Shown piece by piece: positions 1,645 to 8,529 of a stretch of 14,144 nt of DNA. The number at the start of each line of letters is the position of its first letter. Positions within the stretch are counted from its first letter, which is position 1. Below the pieces are notes generated by a model, which saw only the letters and a list, made by a program, of their open reading frames with translations, had not been told where the DNA came from and did no database searches. The position numbers were made by a program, and so were the translations under genes. Source of the DNA: Candidatus Fermentibacterota bacterium (GTDB taxonomy: Bacteria > JAFGKV01); assembly GCA_016928395.1 (NCBI GenBank), contig JAFGKV010000338.1, positions 1 to 14,144 on the forward strand. Direction: 5' to 3'.

Positions 1645-3507
1645 CTATCCAGATGTCCTGGCGGCCATGGCTACCCAGCTTCGCGTATTCGCTGTGGTGA
1701 GTCGCGCCGCCATCACCACCGGAACGCATGGTGGGACTTTAAACAACCTGCGCATGCTTCGCGAAAGGGTCTCGATAGTCCGCTCGGATGGGTCATCTGC
1801 CAGGGTCGGCACCAGCACGACCACCGCCATCGCACAGGAATCGGGCAGGGCATCGATGAGCTTGCGCGCCTCGAGGACCCGCGGGCTCATGCTGTCAAGC
1901 ACGACGAGGAAGATGGGGGGCACATCGCCATCAAGCACTCGGGCCACCTCGTGGTCCTGCCGCCAGTCGGCGCTGGCGATGAGCAGCCATGACGGCGCGT
2001 CCCTTGACGCGCGAACCACGTAGGTCCACGCATCGCCTTGCGGAAGGTCCGCCGCGGTTTGACGGGATCCCGTCAGCATGTCGACGGTATCGATGGCCAC
2101 GGCGGGGGAGGTGCCCAACACGATCACCGATTGCGCCTTGATGCCGGCCACGGCCAGAGCGGCATCGCGGGGAGTAGCGACGAGTCGCGTCAAAGGCGCC
2201 GCTGGCGTGAATTCATCTCCCAGGAGGTCAATCGTCATGCGTGTATCGCGATCGTGGGATGTCGGTTCGCCGGTGAGCGATGGGTGAGTCTTGTCGGAGG
2301 GAGGGGGCGCGACCGGCCCTTCCTTTGCCCCATATGTTCCATCGAAGGGCTCCTCATCGGGGCTGGTCAGGACCTCCGTTACGATGCTGTCGACTACATC
2401 CTTGGAGATTGTCGCGCCTGAGAGAGTCTTCATGGCGACCAGTCGCTTTGCCACGCCCTGAAGGGTTCGGAGGTCGCTTTCCAGTACCGAGGCCAGATGC
2501 GCGAGGATCTCATCATCGATCGGCCAGTTGTTTCGTTGCGCCGTCGCGCGCAGAATGCTCGTGCGGAGAGTGGCATCCGGCTGATCGATACGTACGACCA
2601 GGCCCAACGCAAAAGAAGTACTGATCTCGGTAGTGATGGTATTGAGCTCTTCGGGACGGCGATCGCTGGAAATGACGATTTGATTGCCCTTGTCGTACAT
2701 GACGGCGAGGATGTCGGCGGCCACGGTCTGCATGCTGGGTGAGATGGCGAGGAATTGGATATCGTCAACCAGCATGACGTCGGCCTGGAGATACTGTTCC
2801 CGCAGCAGGGAAACCTGTCGATCGCGATATGCATCCACTATCTGGGCGCTGAAGACTTCCGACGTCAGGTACAGAATCTTGACCCCGTTGCTCCGCCGGT
2901 AGACTTCGTTGGCCAGGGCGCACATGAGATGCGTCTTCCCCAGCCCAGGTCCGCCGTATAAGAACAACGGGTTGAAACGCTTTCCCGGGTCTTCCGACGC
3001 AGCCCGGCAGGCTTCGTAGGCGGAGCGGTTGCCGGTGCCGGGAACAAATGTATCGAACGTCAATTGGGCGAGATGCTCAAGGCCCCTTGCGGCGAAAGGA
3101 CCCTGGGGCAATGGGGCCCGCTGAGACCGGATCGTGTCGCGAAAACGGACCGTGCTGCGCACCCGGGCGACCAGTTCCTTGCCGCTGAAAGGCTTGGTCA
3201 TGTAGTCGTTGGCGCCCAGGTCAAGGCCCTTGATCCTGTCCTCTTCCTCGCCCTTGGCGCTGAGGATGATCAGCGGTGTTCCGGCGATGAGAGGATCGGA
3301 ACGCACCCTCTGAACGAGCTCGAACCCGTCCATCCTCGGCATCATGACGTCACTCAGCACCAGGTCAGGGTGCTCTCCCCGGATCACCTCAAGGGCCTCT
3401 ACTCCGTCTCCGGCCTCCATGACGCTCATGCCTCCCTGAGCAAGCACGGCTTTGACCAACTCAAGCATCACGGGATCATCGTCAACGACCAGAATCCTCT
3501 CACTCAC
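1645..3507 (-). CDS. Response regulator fused to a DnaA-type AAA+ ATPase
   Basis: The protein has 620 residues. Residues 1-120 are a complete receiver domain (acidic pocket Asp9/Asp10/Asp11, phosphoacceptor Asp53, Ser83, Lys105). Residues about 148-375 match the DnaA AAA+ module: LTFDTFVPGTGN entry, Walker A GGPGLGKTH (185-193), Walker B VMLVDDIQF (244-252), sensor I IVISSDRRPEEL (277-288) and sensor II Arg347. The DnaA arginine-finger motif SRF is replaced by TSF (Ser298), and there is no domain IV helix-turn-helix. Residues about 415-620 form a domain I do not recognise. It is therefore unlikely to be a replication initiator; a phosphorylation-controlled ATPase switch is more likely (inference). 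The GTG start follows an AGGAGG site (3514-3519) with a 6-base spacer. The cNMP-domain histidine kinase follows directly. A 131-bp gap (3508-3638) separates it from the DAHP synthase gene upstream, so it may have its own promoter. Confidence 0.9.
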   Translation of the reverse strand: MSERILVVDDDPVMLELVKAVLAQGGMSVMEAGDGVEALEVIRGEHPDLVLSDVMMPRMDGFELVQRVRSDPLIAGTPLIILSAKGEEEDRIKGLDLGANDYMTKPFSGKELVARVRSTVRFRDTIRSQRAPLPQGPFAARGLEHLAQLTFDTFVPGTGNRSAYEACRAASEDPGKRFNPLFLYGGPGLGKTHLMCALANEVYRRSNGVKILYLTSEVFSAQIVDAYRDRQVSLLREQYLQADVMLVDDIQFLAISPSMQTVAADILAVMYDKGNQIVISSDRRPEELNTITTEISTSFALGLVVRIDQPDATLRTSILRATAQRNNWPIDDEILAHLASVLESDLRTLQGVAKRLVAMKTLSGATISKDVVDSIVTEVLTSPDEEPFDGTYGAKEGPVAPPPSDKTHPSLTGEPTSHDRDTRMTIDLLGDEFTPAAPLTRLVATPRDAALAVAGIKAQSVIVLGTSPAVAIDTVDMLTGSRQTAADLPQGDAWTYVVRASRDAPSWLLIASADWRQDHEVARVLDGDVPPIFLVVLDSMSPRVLEARKLIDALPDSCAMAVVVLVPTLADDPSERTIETLSRSMRRLFKVPPCVPVVMAARLTTANTRSWVAMAARTSG

Positions 3508-3638: not shown

Positions 3639-4442
3639 CTACGTCTTCTCACCACGGTCCTGCATCACCGCGAAAATTTCCCTTACATCGCTCAACAGGG
3701 CAGCGAAGCGGTTGAAATCCAGAGATTGCAGCCCATCGGACAGGGCCTTGGCAGGGTTCGGGTGAACCTCGACCATCAACCCGTCGGCGCCGGCGGCGAT
3801 GGCGGCACGAGCCATTGGTATCACAATGTCCGATCGGCCGGTGCCATGCGATGGATCTACGATGATGGGCAGGTCTGTCGCTATCCGCGCGATGGGAACA
3901 ACGTTCAGATCCAGTGTATTCCGCGTCGCGCTTTCGAAGGTGCGAATACCACGTTCGCAGAGGATCACGGCATCATTGCCCTCGCGCCTCAGATACTCGG
4001 CCGCAAGGAAAAACTCGTGGCTGTCGGCCATGAATCCTCGTTTCAGCAGCACCGGATTTGGCTGCGTTCCAAGACGCTTGAGAAGGGCATAATTGTCCAT
4101 ATTGCGGGTGCCGATCTGAAGAATCGCCGCCACGGACGAGAGGAGCGGGATCTGCTCGGCCTCCATGACCTCGCTCACCAAGAACACGCCGTGTCTTTCT
4201 CCTACGGCACGCACCATGTCGACACCGTCCAGTCCGAGACCCTGGAAGGTGAATGGAGACGTCCGTGGCTTAAACACTCCAGCTCGGACCAGACGGATTC
4301 CGTGCTCGACCAGCATCGCCACGATCTCGTCGAACATCGACTCGCTCTCCACGGCGCACGGGCCCGCGATTATGAGGGGTTCACGTTCGGCTATGCGAAA
4401 GGATGCCTTCAACTTCGACAGTGCGGGAGATGGCCGTCTCAT
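3639..4442 (-). CDS. 3-deoxy-7-phosphoheptulonate (DAHP) synthase, short unregulated form
   Basis: It condenses phosphoenolpyruvate with erythrose 4-phosphate in the first step of the shikimate pathway. The 267 residues carry the class Ib DAHP synthase signatures: AGPCAVES (26-33), FKPRTSP (57-63), FQGLG, GTRNMDN (111-117), LLKRG, CERGIRTFE (162-170), DPSHGTG (196-202), EVHPNP and SDGLQS. The expected metal ligands are present (Cys29, His199, Glu225, Asp236). KPRTSP separates it from KDO-8-phosphate synthase. There is no N-terminal ferredoxin-like or ACT domain and no chorismate mutase fusion, so feedback control by aromatic amino acids is not expected. I chose the ATG at 4442, whose ATGA overlaps the stop of the upstream ligase gene; a GTG at 4469 would overlap it further. 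Its place within a glycolipid-type operon suggests it supplies aromatic precursor for a specific product (inference). Confidence 0.93.
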   Translation of the reverse strand: MRRPSPALSKLKASFRIAEREPLIIAGPCAVESESMFDEIVAMLVEHGIRLVRAGVFKPRTSPFTFQGLGLDGVDMVRAVGERHGVFLVSEVMEAEQIPLLSSVAAILQIGTRNMDNYALLKRLGTQPNPVLLKRGFMADSHEFFLAAEYLRREGNDAVILCERGIRTFESATRNTLDLNVVPIARIATDLPIIVDPSHGTGRSDIVIPMARAAIAAGADGLMVEVHPNPAKALSDGLQSLDFNRFAALLSDVREIFAVMQDRGEKT

Positions 4443-6088
4443 GTTCGCCTGCAGTGGTCGATGATGCACGTGAAGATCTCGCGAACTGAGTCATCGAAGA
4501 GCGGGCCGGTATTGCTCCCAACCATCCTCTGTAGTACGGCTTCGTCCGCCGACAGAGGAGTCTCGTCACTCCGGGACGTCGAGGCGATCGACGATGCCCG
4601 TGTGTTGATCAAACCGAGTAGGGCCTTGTCGATGGCATCGATGCCCATGGAAGGGAACCTGCCGGATGCGAGCGCTGACTTGTCGATTCTGCCATCCGGC
4701 ATCCGAGGCAATGCGGTCAAGATGTGAATCTGGGGAAGGTCGGATCTGAAGAACCGGCGAAGGCGTTCCACCATGGATGTGACGGAGAGGGGGCCCTCAC
4801 CGTGCTCCACATAGATTGTCGGAAGAGAGGGCTCGGTTTCGGTGATGATCGCGGCCGAGTCGGCAACTCCCGGTACCCGAGCCAGCGCGTTCTCCAGCCT
4901 CACCAAAGAGATCGGTCGACCTTCGCGGAGGACAGCTTCACCAGGCCTACCGGCCAGGCGAAGACCGCCGTCGGCGGTTAACCGCGCCAGGTCGCCGGTG
5001 GCAAACCACCCCTCGGGCCCGCGCGCAGGCTGTTTGTCGAAATACGCGAGGCTCACGGCCTCGCCTCGAAGCAGCAATTCACCCTCTCTGCCGCCGCCAT
5101 TTGATCGTAGCGACGCTTCGTAGCCGGGGCAGGGAAGGCCGCATACGTCAAGGGTATCGGGAGTGATGGGTCCCATGAGGGCGATGCCCGACGTTTCCGC
5201 CGACCCCCACGCGTTCATCAGCCGCAATCCCGCCGCGGCCAAGCGGGAGATGAGACGCGGCTTGGCATAATCACCCACCAGAACAACGCCACTGACACCG
5301 CCCAGAGCTTCGGTGACGCGATCTCCGAACGGGAGCACTCCTTCCAGTACGCGGGGGGAGGCGATGACCCAGGTGGGGGAGTGCCTGTACAGAAGGGCGA
5401 GAATGGTCCGCGGATACGGGAAGTCTACCGCCACCGTCGTACATCCCGTAACTAGGCCTTTGCCCACAAGCTCGTGCGGGTGCTGCCACGCGGGAAACAG
5501 ACATGCGACCGAATCGTCTCCTCCCAGGCCCAGCACCTGGGCGGTGCCCGAGGCATTGCCCAGCACCATCGCGTGGGTGAGCACCGCGCCCCGAGGAAAA
5601 GCAGTCGCGCCGCCCCGGGTAAAGTCCACGGTCACCGGGCTGTTCTCAGCCGCAGACGAGGGCCAGGGACCCCCTGAGCGCGGTGTAGCCCGTTCACGCG
5701 AACTCCACGACAAGATCTTCCCCGCGCGTACAACTCTGGGAACCTCCAAACGGCCATCGGTGATAAGCACCGAGGCTCGAGAGGATACCTCGCGCAAGAA
5801 CGCGCGCTGCCATCGCGGGTTGAGCGGCATCTGCACCGCCTCGACCATGCCCGCAGCGCAGAGGCTGATCACATGGAAGGGTGCTGAAGTACCCCAGACA
5901 GCCACGGTAGAGCCCGGCCTCACGCCGGCGTCCACGAGGGCCTCGGTCATAGCCAGGGTTTGGAGGAAGAGATCCTCCCACGTGAACACCTCGCCATCCC
6001 ACAGCAGGGCGGCATGTCTCGGCCGTCTGCGCGCAAGCCTGGCCAGGGCGTGATGAATTGTTCCGCTTGTGTACTGAGGTATGTTCAA
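4439..6088 (-). CDS. AMP-forming acyl/aryl ligase-like protein (ANL superfamily), diverged
   Basis: ANL enzymes activate a carboxylate as an acyl-adenylate, often followed by transfer to CoA or a carrier protein. From the TTG at 6088 the protein has 549 residues: an N-domain with NAWGSAETSG (292-301, the A5 region) and the A7 motif GWFATGDL (360-367), then the C-domain hinge around GRPGEAVLREGRP. Two motifs are off-consensus. The phosphate loop is TRGGATAFPRG instead of TSGTTGxPKG, and A10 is PRMPDGRIDK, with Arg467 where the catalytic lysine is expected. About 80 residues after A10 are unassigned; no GxDS carrier-protein motif is visible. I prefer the TTG start because AAGGAG sits 6 bases upstream and the family-like sequence begins there. 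Starts at 6181 (ATG) and 6214 (GTG) are open but would add a tail that looks non-coding. The substrate cannot be read; the following DAHP synthase hints at an aromatic acid. Confidence 0.82.
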   Translation of the reverse strand: MNIPQYTSGTIHHALARLARRRPRHAALLWDGEVFTWEDLFLQTLAMTEALVDAGVRPGSTVAVWGTSAPFHVISLCAAGMVEAVQMPLNPRWQRAFLREVSSRASVLITDGRLEVPRVVRAGKILSWSSRERATPRSGGPWPSSAAENSPVTVDFTRGGATAFPRGAVLTHAMVLGNASGTAQVLGLGGDDSVACLFPAWQHPHELVGKGLVTGCTTVAVDFPYPRTILALLYRHSPTWVIASPRVLEGVLPFGDRVTEALGGVSGVVLVGDYAKPRLISRLAAAGLRLMNAWGSAETSGIALMGPITPDTLDVCGLPCPGYEASLRSNGGGREGELLLRGEAVSLAYFDKQPARGPEGWFATGDLARLTADGGLRLAGRPGEAVLREGRPISLVRLENALARVPGVADSAAIITETEPSLPTIYVEHGEGPLSVTSMVERLRRFFRSDLPQIHILTALPRMPDGRIDKSALASGRFPSMGIDAIDKALLGLINTRASSIASTSRSDETPLSADEAVLQRMVGSNTGPLFDDSVREIFTCIIDHCRRT

Positions 6089-6094
6089 TCGAGG

Positions 6095-6100
6095 CTCCTT
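6095..6100 (-). promoter_or_regulatory. Ribosome binding site supporting a TTG start
   Basis: ctcctt on the plus strand reads AAGGAG on the minus strand, 6 bases before the TTG at 6088. No comparable site sits at a suitable distance before the upstream in-frame ATG (6181) or GTG (6214), so this decides the start of the ligase gene. Confidence 0.55.
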
Positions 6101-6185
6101 GTCTTCCTCTACCGTGGCACGTTTCTCACCGCACTGCGGGGTTCGCTGCGCTGCCGTACTTCCTGTCTCGCCCGTCGTCATTTCC

Positions 6186-6217
6186 GAGGTGTTCCCTGAA
6201 GGCGAAATGAACACCTC
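6186..6217 (-). promoter_or_regulatory. Hairpin in the leader of the ligase gene, enclosing an SD-like sequence
   Basis: gaggtgttc (6186-6194) and gaacacctc (6209-6217) are perfect 9-bp inverted arms around a 14-base loop. On the transcribed (minus) strand the 5' arm contains AGGAGGTG, a near-perfect Shine-Dalgarno sequence that has no start codon other than ATT at a suitable distance. The hairpin lies in the 170-bp gap 6089-6258 between the GT2 fusion and the preferred ligase start. It could attenuate transcription or mark an mRNA processing point; its function is inferred. Confidence 0.4.
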
Positions 6218-6258: not shown

Positions 6259-8529
6259 TTAACGCTGGCTCCAGAGTGCCGGCATGCTTCGGAGTATGAT
6301 CACCATATCCAGCAGCAGCGACCGATTCCTGAGATAGAAGAAATCATGCTCTACGTCAGATCCTACTCCAACATCGCCGGCTCTGCCCACGAGCCACATT
6401 CCGGTGAGGCCAGGACGGACTTCCAGCAGCAGTCGTTCCCAATACGGCGCATGGGCCATCCTCTCCGGGGGCTCACCTCTGGGGCCCACCAGGCTCATGT
6501 CTCCCCGAACCACCCCCAATAGCCTCGGCACTCGGTCGAGGCCACTGCGACGAATACACCGATCAAGGAAACACATTCGGTCTGGCATGGCGAGTCTGGT
6601 GGTGGTGAAAGAGCGCCCTCCTCTCCCGATTCGTCTCTCGCAGACAAAAAGCGGCCGCCTCCCACGGAGTGCCGATGCGACTGTGTACAGGAGAAGTACC
6701 GGCGCGGTGGCGGCAAGGCCGAACAGCGCGACCGCGCGGTCGAAGATCGTCTTGATCGCCCCCTGGATGTATCCGAAACGGGGTCTGCTTAAGTCCAACA
6801 CCGATAGACTGGTCAATGAGGTGACCTGTCTGCTGGCCGCGTCCATGGGTCCGGGGTTCGATACCGCTTTGCACGAGACTCCCGATGCGTCACACGCCAA
6901 TGCCGCAGCCATGGTCTCCACGGGAGAAAGCGTTGGATCGGCGATCAGCACTTCATCGACTGCCAGTGAGAGAGCAAGCGCAGGCATGCTCTCCGGCCTG
7001 CCAACCCAGGGGATTGTCGAAGGCCTTGTCTTTGAAGGAGGATCGCGACTCACGAACCCTACGGGAGTATACCCCAGAGACGGATAGCGAAGCATTCTGT
7101 CCACCAGCGAGAACGCAGTCTCCCCACCGCCGACCACCAGGCAGCGGGACGAGCGATACCCTTCCTGCAGCAGGCGGCGCTGCAGCGCGCGCACAAGCGA
7201 TCTGAAGAAGACTATGAGGGGCACGACCATGACGAAGAGCAAGAGCACAAGCACTCTGCTATAGTCGAATTTGGCTAGGAAAGACAGTGCCATGATCACC
7301 AGTAGCGAGAAGACAGAACCGCGGGTAACCCGGATGAACTCAACAAAGGGAGTGGTATGTACGCGCACCGCATAGAGATTGAGATAGGAAAACGCTCCCA
7401 ACCACAGACACACGACGATCGGGAGCGGCCTGAGGTAGACGTCGATTCCGTGGGCAAACGGAGTCAGGGCATTGGCCACCACCCGTGTGCGAATGAGGAA
7501 TGCTGCCAGAAAGGCCCCGACCACGGCAAAGGTGTCAGCGAGCACCAAGAGCGCAGGCACCAAAAGGTCCTTTTCCCGATGGGCCAAAGCTCCCGCCGCT
7601 CCGCCTGCGCCAAGGGCCAATGACCGGCCCAACGCGAGGGGGAAAAACATTGGCATGATGGCTGGGTCGGTGCGCAGCATGGAGGTCATGAGCGGCACCG
7701 TTGTTGCCACGAGCACTGCGAATGCCGCCACGGGAATCTGCCACGGCAGCACCCCCACGACCGCGATCAATGCCAGGAGCAGGCAGAGGGGCGCCAAGGC
7801 GGCCTGCACCTTCAGGAGTTGCGGGGTATAGCTATCTGCCAGAAGCTTGGCTGGATGCCGACGGTACACCATTGCCCGCCAATAGGCGCGGAGGAATTTG
7901 GTGCGGAGGTATTTCGTCAGGGATTGCGGATGCCTGTGGTAGACTACCGCGTCCGGGGCGAATACCATGCGCGCTCCCCGGGCGGCCAGCTTGTACGAGA
8001 GATCGACATCTTCGTTGTTGGCCTTGGGAAATCGGAGATCAAAGCCTCCTGCTTCGCGGAAGGCTTGGGCTCGGATTGCCGCGGAATAGGTGTCGACGAA
8101 GTCGATGAACCGGTATCCCAAGAGCCGGCGGTATCGCTCCTCGAATTCCACCTGGGCGAACCGGGCCGCGATGGACCGCTGGCGCGTCTTGTAGGCGCCC
8201 TTCACCGCGATGACCGCAGGGTCCGCCATGGGCGCCGTCAACTGGTCGAGCCACTGGGAATGCGGTTCGCAATCGCTATCGGTGAACACAAGCACATCGC
8301 CGCGAGCAGCCTCCGCTCCGTGGTTCCGCGCTGCAGCCGGCCCCGAGCGGGTCTGCGAGAGAACCCGATCGGCCAGACTCGCGGCAATGGTGGCGGTGGC
8401 ATCGGTGGAACCATCGTCAACTACGATGATCTCGAAGGAATCCCGCGGAACCGTCTGGTTATGAACGGCGCGCAAGGCACGCTCTATGGTGTCCTCGGCA
8501 TTGTAGGCAGGTATGATGACGCTGATCAT
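6259..8529 (-). CDS. GT2 glycosyltransferase fused to a polyprenyl-phosphate sugar-phosphate transferase-like domain
   Basis: The protein has 756 residues. Residues 1-230 are a GT-A family 2 glycosyltransferase: VIIPAYNAEDTIERAL at the start, VVDDGSTD (36-43), the metal-binding TDSD (83-86) and NNEDVDLSYK (171-180). Hydrophobic segments at about 243-285, 322-346, 368-386, 404-418 and 427-442 anchor it in the inner membrane. Residues about 460-560 are a CoA_binding_3-like nucleotide fold (RCLVVGGGE). Residues about 588-756 resemble the WbaP/WecA-independent bacterial sugar transferase domain (GDMSLVGPR, RPGLTG). In that last domain the catalytic Asp-Glu dyad is Asp665-Arg666, and the usual KFRTM is TRLAM. 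It may initiate a lipid-linked glycan and add the next sugar, or only the GT2 part may be active. The ATG overlaps the stop of the radical SAM gene (ATGA). Confidence 0.88.
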   Translation of the reverse strand: MISVIIPAYNAEDTIERALRAVHNQTVPRDSFEIIVVDDGSTDATATIAASLADRVLSQTRSGPAAARNHGAEAARGDVLVFTDSDCEPHSQWLDQLTAPMADPAVIAVKGAYKTRQRSIAARFAQVEFEERYRRLLGYRFIDFVDTYSAAIRAQAFREAGGFDLRFPKANNEDVDLSYKLAARGARMVFAPDAVVYHRHPQSLTKYLRTKFLRAYWRAMVYRRHPAKLLADSYTPQLLKVQAALAPLCLLLALIAVVGVLPWQIPVAAFAVLVATTVPLMTSMLRTDPAIMPMFFPLALGRSLALGAGGAAGALAHREKDLLVPALLVLADTFAVVGAFLAAFLIRTRVVANALTPFAHGIDVYLRPLPIVVCLWLGAFSYLNLYAVRVHTTPFVEFIRVTRGSVFSLLVIMALSFLAKFDYSRVLVLLLFVMVVPLIVFFRSLVRALQRRLLQEGYRSSRCLVVGGGETAFSLVDRMLRYPSLGYTPVGFVSRDPPSKTRPSTIPWVGRPESMPALALSLAVDEVLIADPTLSPVETMAAALACDASGVSCKAVSNPGPMDAASRQVTSLTSLSVLDLSRPRFGYIQGAIKTIFDRAVALFGLAATAPVLLLYTVASALRGRRPLFVCERRIGRGGRSFTTTRLAMPDRMCFLDRCIRRSGLDRVPRLLGVVRGDMSLVGPRGEPPERMAHAPYWERLLLEVRPGLTGMWLVGRAGDVGVGSDVEHDFFYLRNRSLLLDMVIILRSMPALWSQR

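Follow-up and report, generated by a model that had tools for sequence, protein, structure and literature searches.

A receiver domain fused to a DnaA-type ATPase

What does the ATPase of DnaA, a protein usually regarded almost solely as the replication initiator, do when it is placed behind the receiver of a two-component system? The question is raised by a 14,144-nucleotide stretch of Candidatus Fermentibacterota DNA (contig JAFGKV010000338.1), analyzed at its full length and called the window here. On its minus strand, a gene with a GTG start codon (1645 to 3507) encodes a 620-amino-acid protein, P0001. From its reading frame and from Pfam and NCBIfam matches, this protein is a response regulator composed of a receiver, a DnaA domain III and a C-terminal domain.

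The receiver occupies residues 5 to 117 (3157 to 3495, minus; Pfam Response_reg, E 3.6e-32). Response regulators are defined by a receiver with five active-site residues (DD, D, T/S, and K) (PMC12632262). P0001 has all five, namely, the acidic pair at residues 9 to 11, the phosphoacceptor D53 (codon 3349 to 3351, minus), S83, and K105, and in this respect it is a two-component response regulator. The site is kept in 12 of 12 full-length relatives, with S or T at position 83. The original prediction of an intact phosphoacceptor pocket around Asp53 and Lys105 was correct.

Behind the receiver lies a DnaA domain III-type AAA+ module (residues 146 to 390; 2338 to 3072, minus). Pfam Bac_DnaA (PF00308) matches residues 148 to 305 with an E value of 2.5e-48, the NCBIfam DnaA model TIGR00362 spans residues 146 to 382, and the best match of the module in the PDB is Bacillus subtilis DnaA. 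By alignment, Walker A (GGPGLGKT, residues 185 to 192; 2932 to 2955, minus), Walker B (VMLVDD, residues 244 to 249; 2761 to 2778, minus) and the sensor II arginine R347, equivalent to E. coli Arg334 (2467 to 2469, minus), are all intact, as had been proposed. The claim that TSF replaces the SRF of the DnaA arginine finger also holds, in that S298 (2614 to 2616, minus) aligns exactly with E. coli Arg285.

Pfam gave no match in P0001 past residue ~390 and no sigma-54 activator AAA+ domain. A whole-genome search with Bac_DnaA_C (PF08299) found canonical DnaA (contig C126) and three other places and returned nothing on the contig of P0001, in agreement with the predicted lack of DnaA domain IV. 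Membership of P0001 in the DnaA or Hda family was rejected, because its bit scores are below the curated NCBIfam equivalog cutoffs of both TIGR00362 (236.1 versus 343.9) and the Hda model TIGR03420 (82.8 versus 194.8). No RNA families or terminators were found around the gene.

ATP-site residues are kept and initiator residues are lost

We compared 18 receiver-DnaA proteins and 37 DnaA orthologs with E. coli DnaA (NC_000913.3), using the residue roles given in PMC5742627. The nucleotide-site residues Lys178, Asp235, Asp236, and Arg334 are kept in all 18 receiver-DnaA proteins. None of the 18 keeps Arg227 (AID-1), Lys243, Arg281 (box VII), or Arg245 (the single-stranded DNA [ssDNA] B-motif), and the arginine finger, Arg285, is kept in 3 and lost from 15. 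Among the orthologs, Arg281 and Arg285 are present in 37 of 37, Arg227 and Lys243 are nearly invariant, and Arg245 is variable. Because Arg245 varies among true DnaAs, its loss from the receiver-DnaA proteins is weak evidence. P0001 itself is missing both the finger and the box VII arginine, with S298 at the Arg285 position and E294 at the Arg281 position. As read from these alignments, such conservation is what selection to bind ATP, together with release from DnaA-type subunit contacts, would be expected to leave. Since the finger arginine is kept in 3 of the 12 full-length proteins, trans activity may persist in some of them.

A conserved C-terminal domain

The original prediction overlooked the region behind the AAA+ module. 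Residues 415 to 620 are not empty; they hold a conserved domain of ~160 to 200 amino acids. In an alignment of 12 sequences, residues from about 425 to 620 contain 20 invariant columns and are therefore a real domain, and its conserved portion in this alignment covers residues from about 455 to 613 (1669 to 2145, minus). The domain matches no Pfam family. A DNA-binding domain hidden in residues 415 to 620, which the original prediction had set against its own reading, was sought and rejected, as nothing appeared in Pfam even at an E value of 10.

The predicted pattern of the domain is alpha/beta, with the strand-helix order of TRAFAC/Ras-type GTPases. Its best profile match among PDB sequences is the GTPase Der, at a subthreshold E value of 0.019. 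When the domain was aligned with Era/Der-type GTPases by hhalign (P, 0.005), the score of 23.41 was reached by 0 of 300 column shuffles, the nearest scoring 23.36. Two low-confidence models of the domain (single sequence and alignment free; mean pLDDT, 40 and 46) were compared with solved structures by Foldseek, and Ras-superfamily proteins dominated the top matches (E 0.02 to 0.3), a comparison biased by the abundance of Ras structures in the PDB. The G1 (GxxxxGK[ST]), G3 (DxxG), and G4 (NKxD) motifs are absent from all 12 aligned domains. These signals are below threshold but agree and are partly independent, and the domain is likely a degenerate GTPase-like fold without nucleotide motifs. 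An MglA-type GTPase was rejected as its specific relative because the match was not significant.

Distribution in the phylum and beyond

Our sample of the phylum consists of three draft genomes from one family. Of the 13 Bac_DnaA matches in the host genome, one is canonical DnaA, with domain IV, on a separate contig. The full three-part architecture occurs in four proteins per genome in all three genomes (12 full-length proteins). Each genome also encodes two shorter receiver-DnaA relatives, one of ~400 amino acids and one of ~500 amino acids whose receiver is degenerate; the G000 copy of the latter has His at the phosphoacceptor position and Ile at the Lys position. Neither this phylum-wide set of paralogs nor the MshEN-DnaA relatives described below had been noticed in the original prediction.

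At an E value of 1e-20, the three genomes of the phylum have 10, 8, and 12 Bac_DnaA matches, whereas the other genomes of a 241-genome sample have 0 to 5, usually 1. Among 383 other bacterial genomes, with the three best candidates of each scored, nothing matched as strongly as a receiver-DnaA fusion would (E 1e-67). No relatives were found in viral contigs, and plasmid relatives were rejected, because the matches listed there were limited to the AAA+ part of DnaA. We found no described receiver-DnaA protein in the open-licence literature searched. The architecture was not found to be a common, already characterized regulator, the other finding that the original prediction had set against itself. 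It looks like an undescribed kind of signaling protein, kept in several copies across a small phylum.

MshEN-DnaA and other relatives without domain IV

In a maximum-likelihood tree of 64 AAA+ domain sequences, all receiver-DnaA proteins fall into a single clade (98/93). Its sister is a group of MshEN-DnaA proteins (94/80), and the two are together set apart from DnaA (100/99). In this sister group, the DnaA-type module is already paired with a different regulatory N terminus. One of the MshEN-DnaA proteins is encoded in a cluster of type IV pilus-type genes. At L009, the MshEN-DnaA genes have a prepilin peptidase gene and an SprA_N gene nearby, and the G002 locus (L144) adds an MshEN-T2SSE ATPase. 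The clusters near the prepilin peptidase span 8940 to 18341 (plus) of L009 and 4309 to 15923 (plus) of L144 and include a protein that carries two DnaA domains and another that has a long C-terminal extension. They represent an undescribed pilus-linked family that is perhaps worth a separate study.

The second MshEN-DnaA protein, the one with the long extension, groups with a TPR-DnaA protein from another phylum. MshEN-DnaA and tandem-DnaA proteins also occur in other phyla, and none of those read has a receiver. Four loci from other phyla (L235, L241, L237, and L239) encode proteins in which a spacer links two DnaA ATPase domains and domain IV is apparently missing. At L222, L232, and L233, which come from three families of other phyla, proteins of 616 to 716 amino acids carry a DnaA ATPase amid uncharacterized N- and C-terminal domains. 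No published description of MshEN-DnaA, tandem-DnaA, or TPR-DnaA proteins was found. Because DnaA proteins without domain IV occur in several architectures and phyla, their ATPase appears to have been reused repeatedly, with the receiver fusion as the version represented by P0001.

Genomic neighborhood

A histidine kinase gene (495 to 1610, minus) begins 34 nucleotides downstream of the P0001 gene on the same strand. It encodes 371 amino acids with Pfam cNMP_binding, HisKA, and HATPase_c domains. In a second genome of the phylum (G001), a neighbor 74% identical to this kinase occupies the same position. In the C218 lineage, all three genomes of the phylum retain the pairing of kinase and regulator. 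Overall, a histidine kinase adjoins 7 of the 12 full-length receiver-DnaA genes, and the other 5 have no kinase nearby.

Upstream on the same strand are genes for a DAHP synthase, an AMP-ligase/chorismate-mutase fusion, a GT2/sugar-transferase fusion, a radical SAM protein, an acyltransferase, and a heptosyltransferase-like protein; this run suggests a link between P0001 and surface glycoconjugates. The AMP-ligase gene (4439 to 6214, minus; PF00501) has a chorismate-mutase-like C terminus (PF01817, E 9.6e-5, under the Pfam cutoff). It overlaps the DAHP synthase gene (3639 to 4469) by 31 nucleotides, an arrangement that is identical in G001. The next fusion (6259 to 8529, minus) combines a GT2 glycosyltransferase, CoA_binding_3, and a Bac_transf initiating sugar transferase in one protein. 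The four receiver-DnaA paralogs of each genome have diverse and unrelated neighbors; in the stretches read, none is next to dnaA and none lies in a pilus cluster.

Positions 1 to 420 of the window contain REP-like palindromic repeats, in which GTAGGAGCG occurs 5 times versus 0.09 expected and a 47-nucleotide unit occurs twice (23 to 69 and 127 to 173). REP-associated Y1 transposase-like proteins, whose family was assigned by eye from motifs, are encoded at two other loci (L020, 100 to 1122, minus; L021, 766 to 2121, plus) and carry a Bac_DnaA_C match. The L021 protein runs into a protein-kinase-like stretch that is ended by the contig edge.

A candidate phosphorylation-gated switch

Our preferred reading, which we consider probable although well short of secure, is that P0001 is a response regulator with a repurposed DnaA domain III as its output. 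It would be a phosphorylation-gated ATP switch that acts through protein partners and not through DnaA boxes. A histidine kinase, for P0001 probably the adjacent cNMP_binding-HisKA-HATPase protein, would phosphorylate D53, and this would alter the AAA+ module, either in its ATP-bound state or in its self-association. The module would serve as a nucleotide-dependent conformational switch and would not build DnaA filaments at the origin. Protein partners would be contacted by the C-terminal GTPase-like domain and by the surface of the AAA+ module, and the output would probably be tied to the surface-polysaccharide-type genes upstream on the same strand. Support for a switch away from the origin comes from the complete receiver and nucleotide sites and from the loss of domain IV and of the subunit and ssDNA contacts. 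The original proposal, a receiver-gated ATPase with a DnaA fold and a role other than at the origin, stands in its structural part, given the separate canonical DnaA, the missing domain IV, the lost trans and ssDNA residues, the kept ATP site, and the histidine kinases beside 7 of the 12 full-length genes; its functional part, from phosphorylation by the neighboring kinase and ATPase activity to any transcriptional role, stays a prediction from sequence.

A rival reading, which could also be the concrete output of this switch, is an ATP-driven factor that assembles or positions surface or motility machinery, as the pilus-linked MshEN-DnaA proteins might. The sister clade points this way, with its genes beside the prepilin peptidase and SprA_N genes (L009) and the MshEN-T2SSE ATPase gene (L144), as does the same-strand run of P0001 with glycosyltransferase and sugar-transferase genes. 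However, no receiver-DnaA gene read sits in a pilus cluster and their neighbors are diverse, which leaves an assembly role possible but doubtful.

A role in replication control, in which P0001 would be a phosphorylation-gated modulator that caps or poisons origin-bound assemblies of DnaA, much as Hda or other inhibitors that bind DnaA do, seems to us quite unlikely. The module is most closely related to DnaA domain III, its ATP site is intact and could accept the arginine finger of a neighboring DnaA, and Hda is established to act on DnaA through its AAA+ domain (PMC5742627). However, with Arg227, Lys243, and Arg281 lost from 18 of 18 proteins and Arg285 lost from P0001, the residues that face DnaA are gone, and P0001 therefore has no finger to offer as a trans-activator. 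Its scores are also below the cutoffs of both the Hda and DnaA models, and the four paralogs per genome stand beside unrelated genes, none adjoining dnaA in the stretches read. Equally improbable is a DNA-binding transcription regulator with an unrecognized DNA-binding fold in its C-terminal domain, since the NtrC-like layout (receiver, AAA+, DNA binding) and the position in a same-strand run are countered by the lack of any Pfam match to a DNA-binding or sigma-54 activator domain and by an alpha/beta prediction and weak matches that favor a GTPase fold over a helix-turn-helix.

Comparison with known systems

P0001 (residues 146 to 382) shares with domain III of DnaA the N-terminal box, Walker A and B, and sensors I and II. 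Unlike DnaA, it has no domains I and IV, and it has lost the arginine finger, the box VII Arg, the AID-1 Arg, and Lys243; it has a receiver in front of the AAA+ module and a new domain behind it. To our knowledge, Hda is the only well-known DnaA paralog, and like P0001 it has a DnaA-type AAA+ module without domain IV. P0001 differs from Hda, a protein that binds the sliding clamp, in the receiver at its N terminus and in the added C-terminal domain, in the missing arginine finger, and in its Hda score (82.8 versus 194.8).

Likewise, the MshEN-DnaA, tandem-DnaA, and TPR-DnaA proteins join a DnaA domain III without domain IV to other domains, but they have no receiver. The arginine finger lost from P0001 is kept in the 1,308-amino-acid MshEN-DnaA protein of the phylum and in the TPR, tandem, and f25 MshEN forms. 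TRAFAC/Ras-type GTPases such as Der and Ras resemble the C-terminal domain alone, in strand-helix order and by a weak profile match; the domain is without the G1 lysine, G3, and G4, and the similarity is under accepted thresholds.

Among signaling proteins, NtrC-type response regulators have the same order of receiver and AAA+ ATPase and a histidine kinase nearby, whereas the AAA+ module of P0001 is of the DnaA class and not the sigma-54 activator class, and no Fis-type DNA-binding domain follows it. Tentatively, and as a conjecture from sequence that we hold to be somewhat short of an even chance, P0001 may represent a new class of response regulator output. In it, an initiator ATPase without DNA-binding or oligomer-contact residues and a GTPase-like domain no longer able to bind nucleotide would form an ATP switch gated by phosphorylation; with the MshEN-, TPR-, and tandem-DnaA proteins, it would belong to a wider signaling use of the DnaA ATPase outside replication. 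That a phylum-wide family keeps the ATP site and loses the trans-acting residues of the initiator points to recruitment of the module as a signaling switch. The family would add a type of output to the two-component repertoire, and it provides natural separation-of-function variants with which to ask what the DnaA ATPase does when DNA binding and filament formation are taken away.
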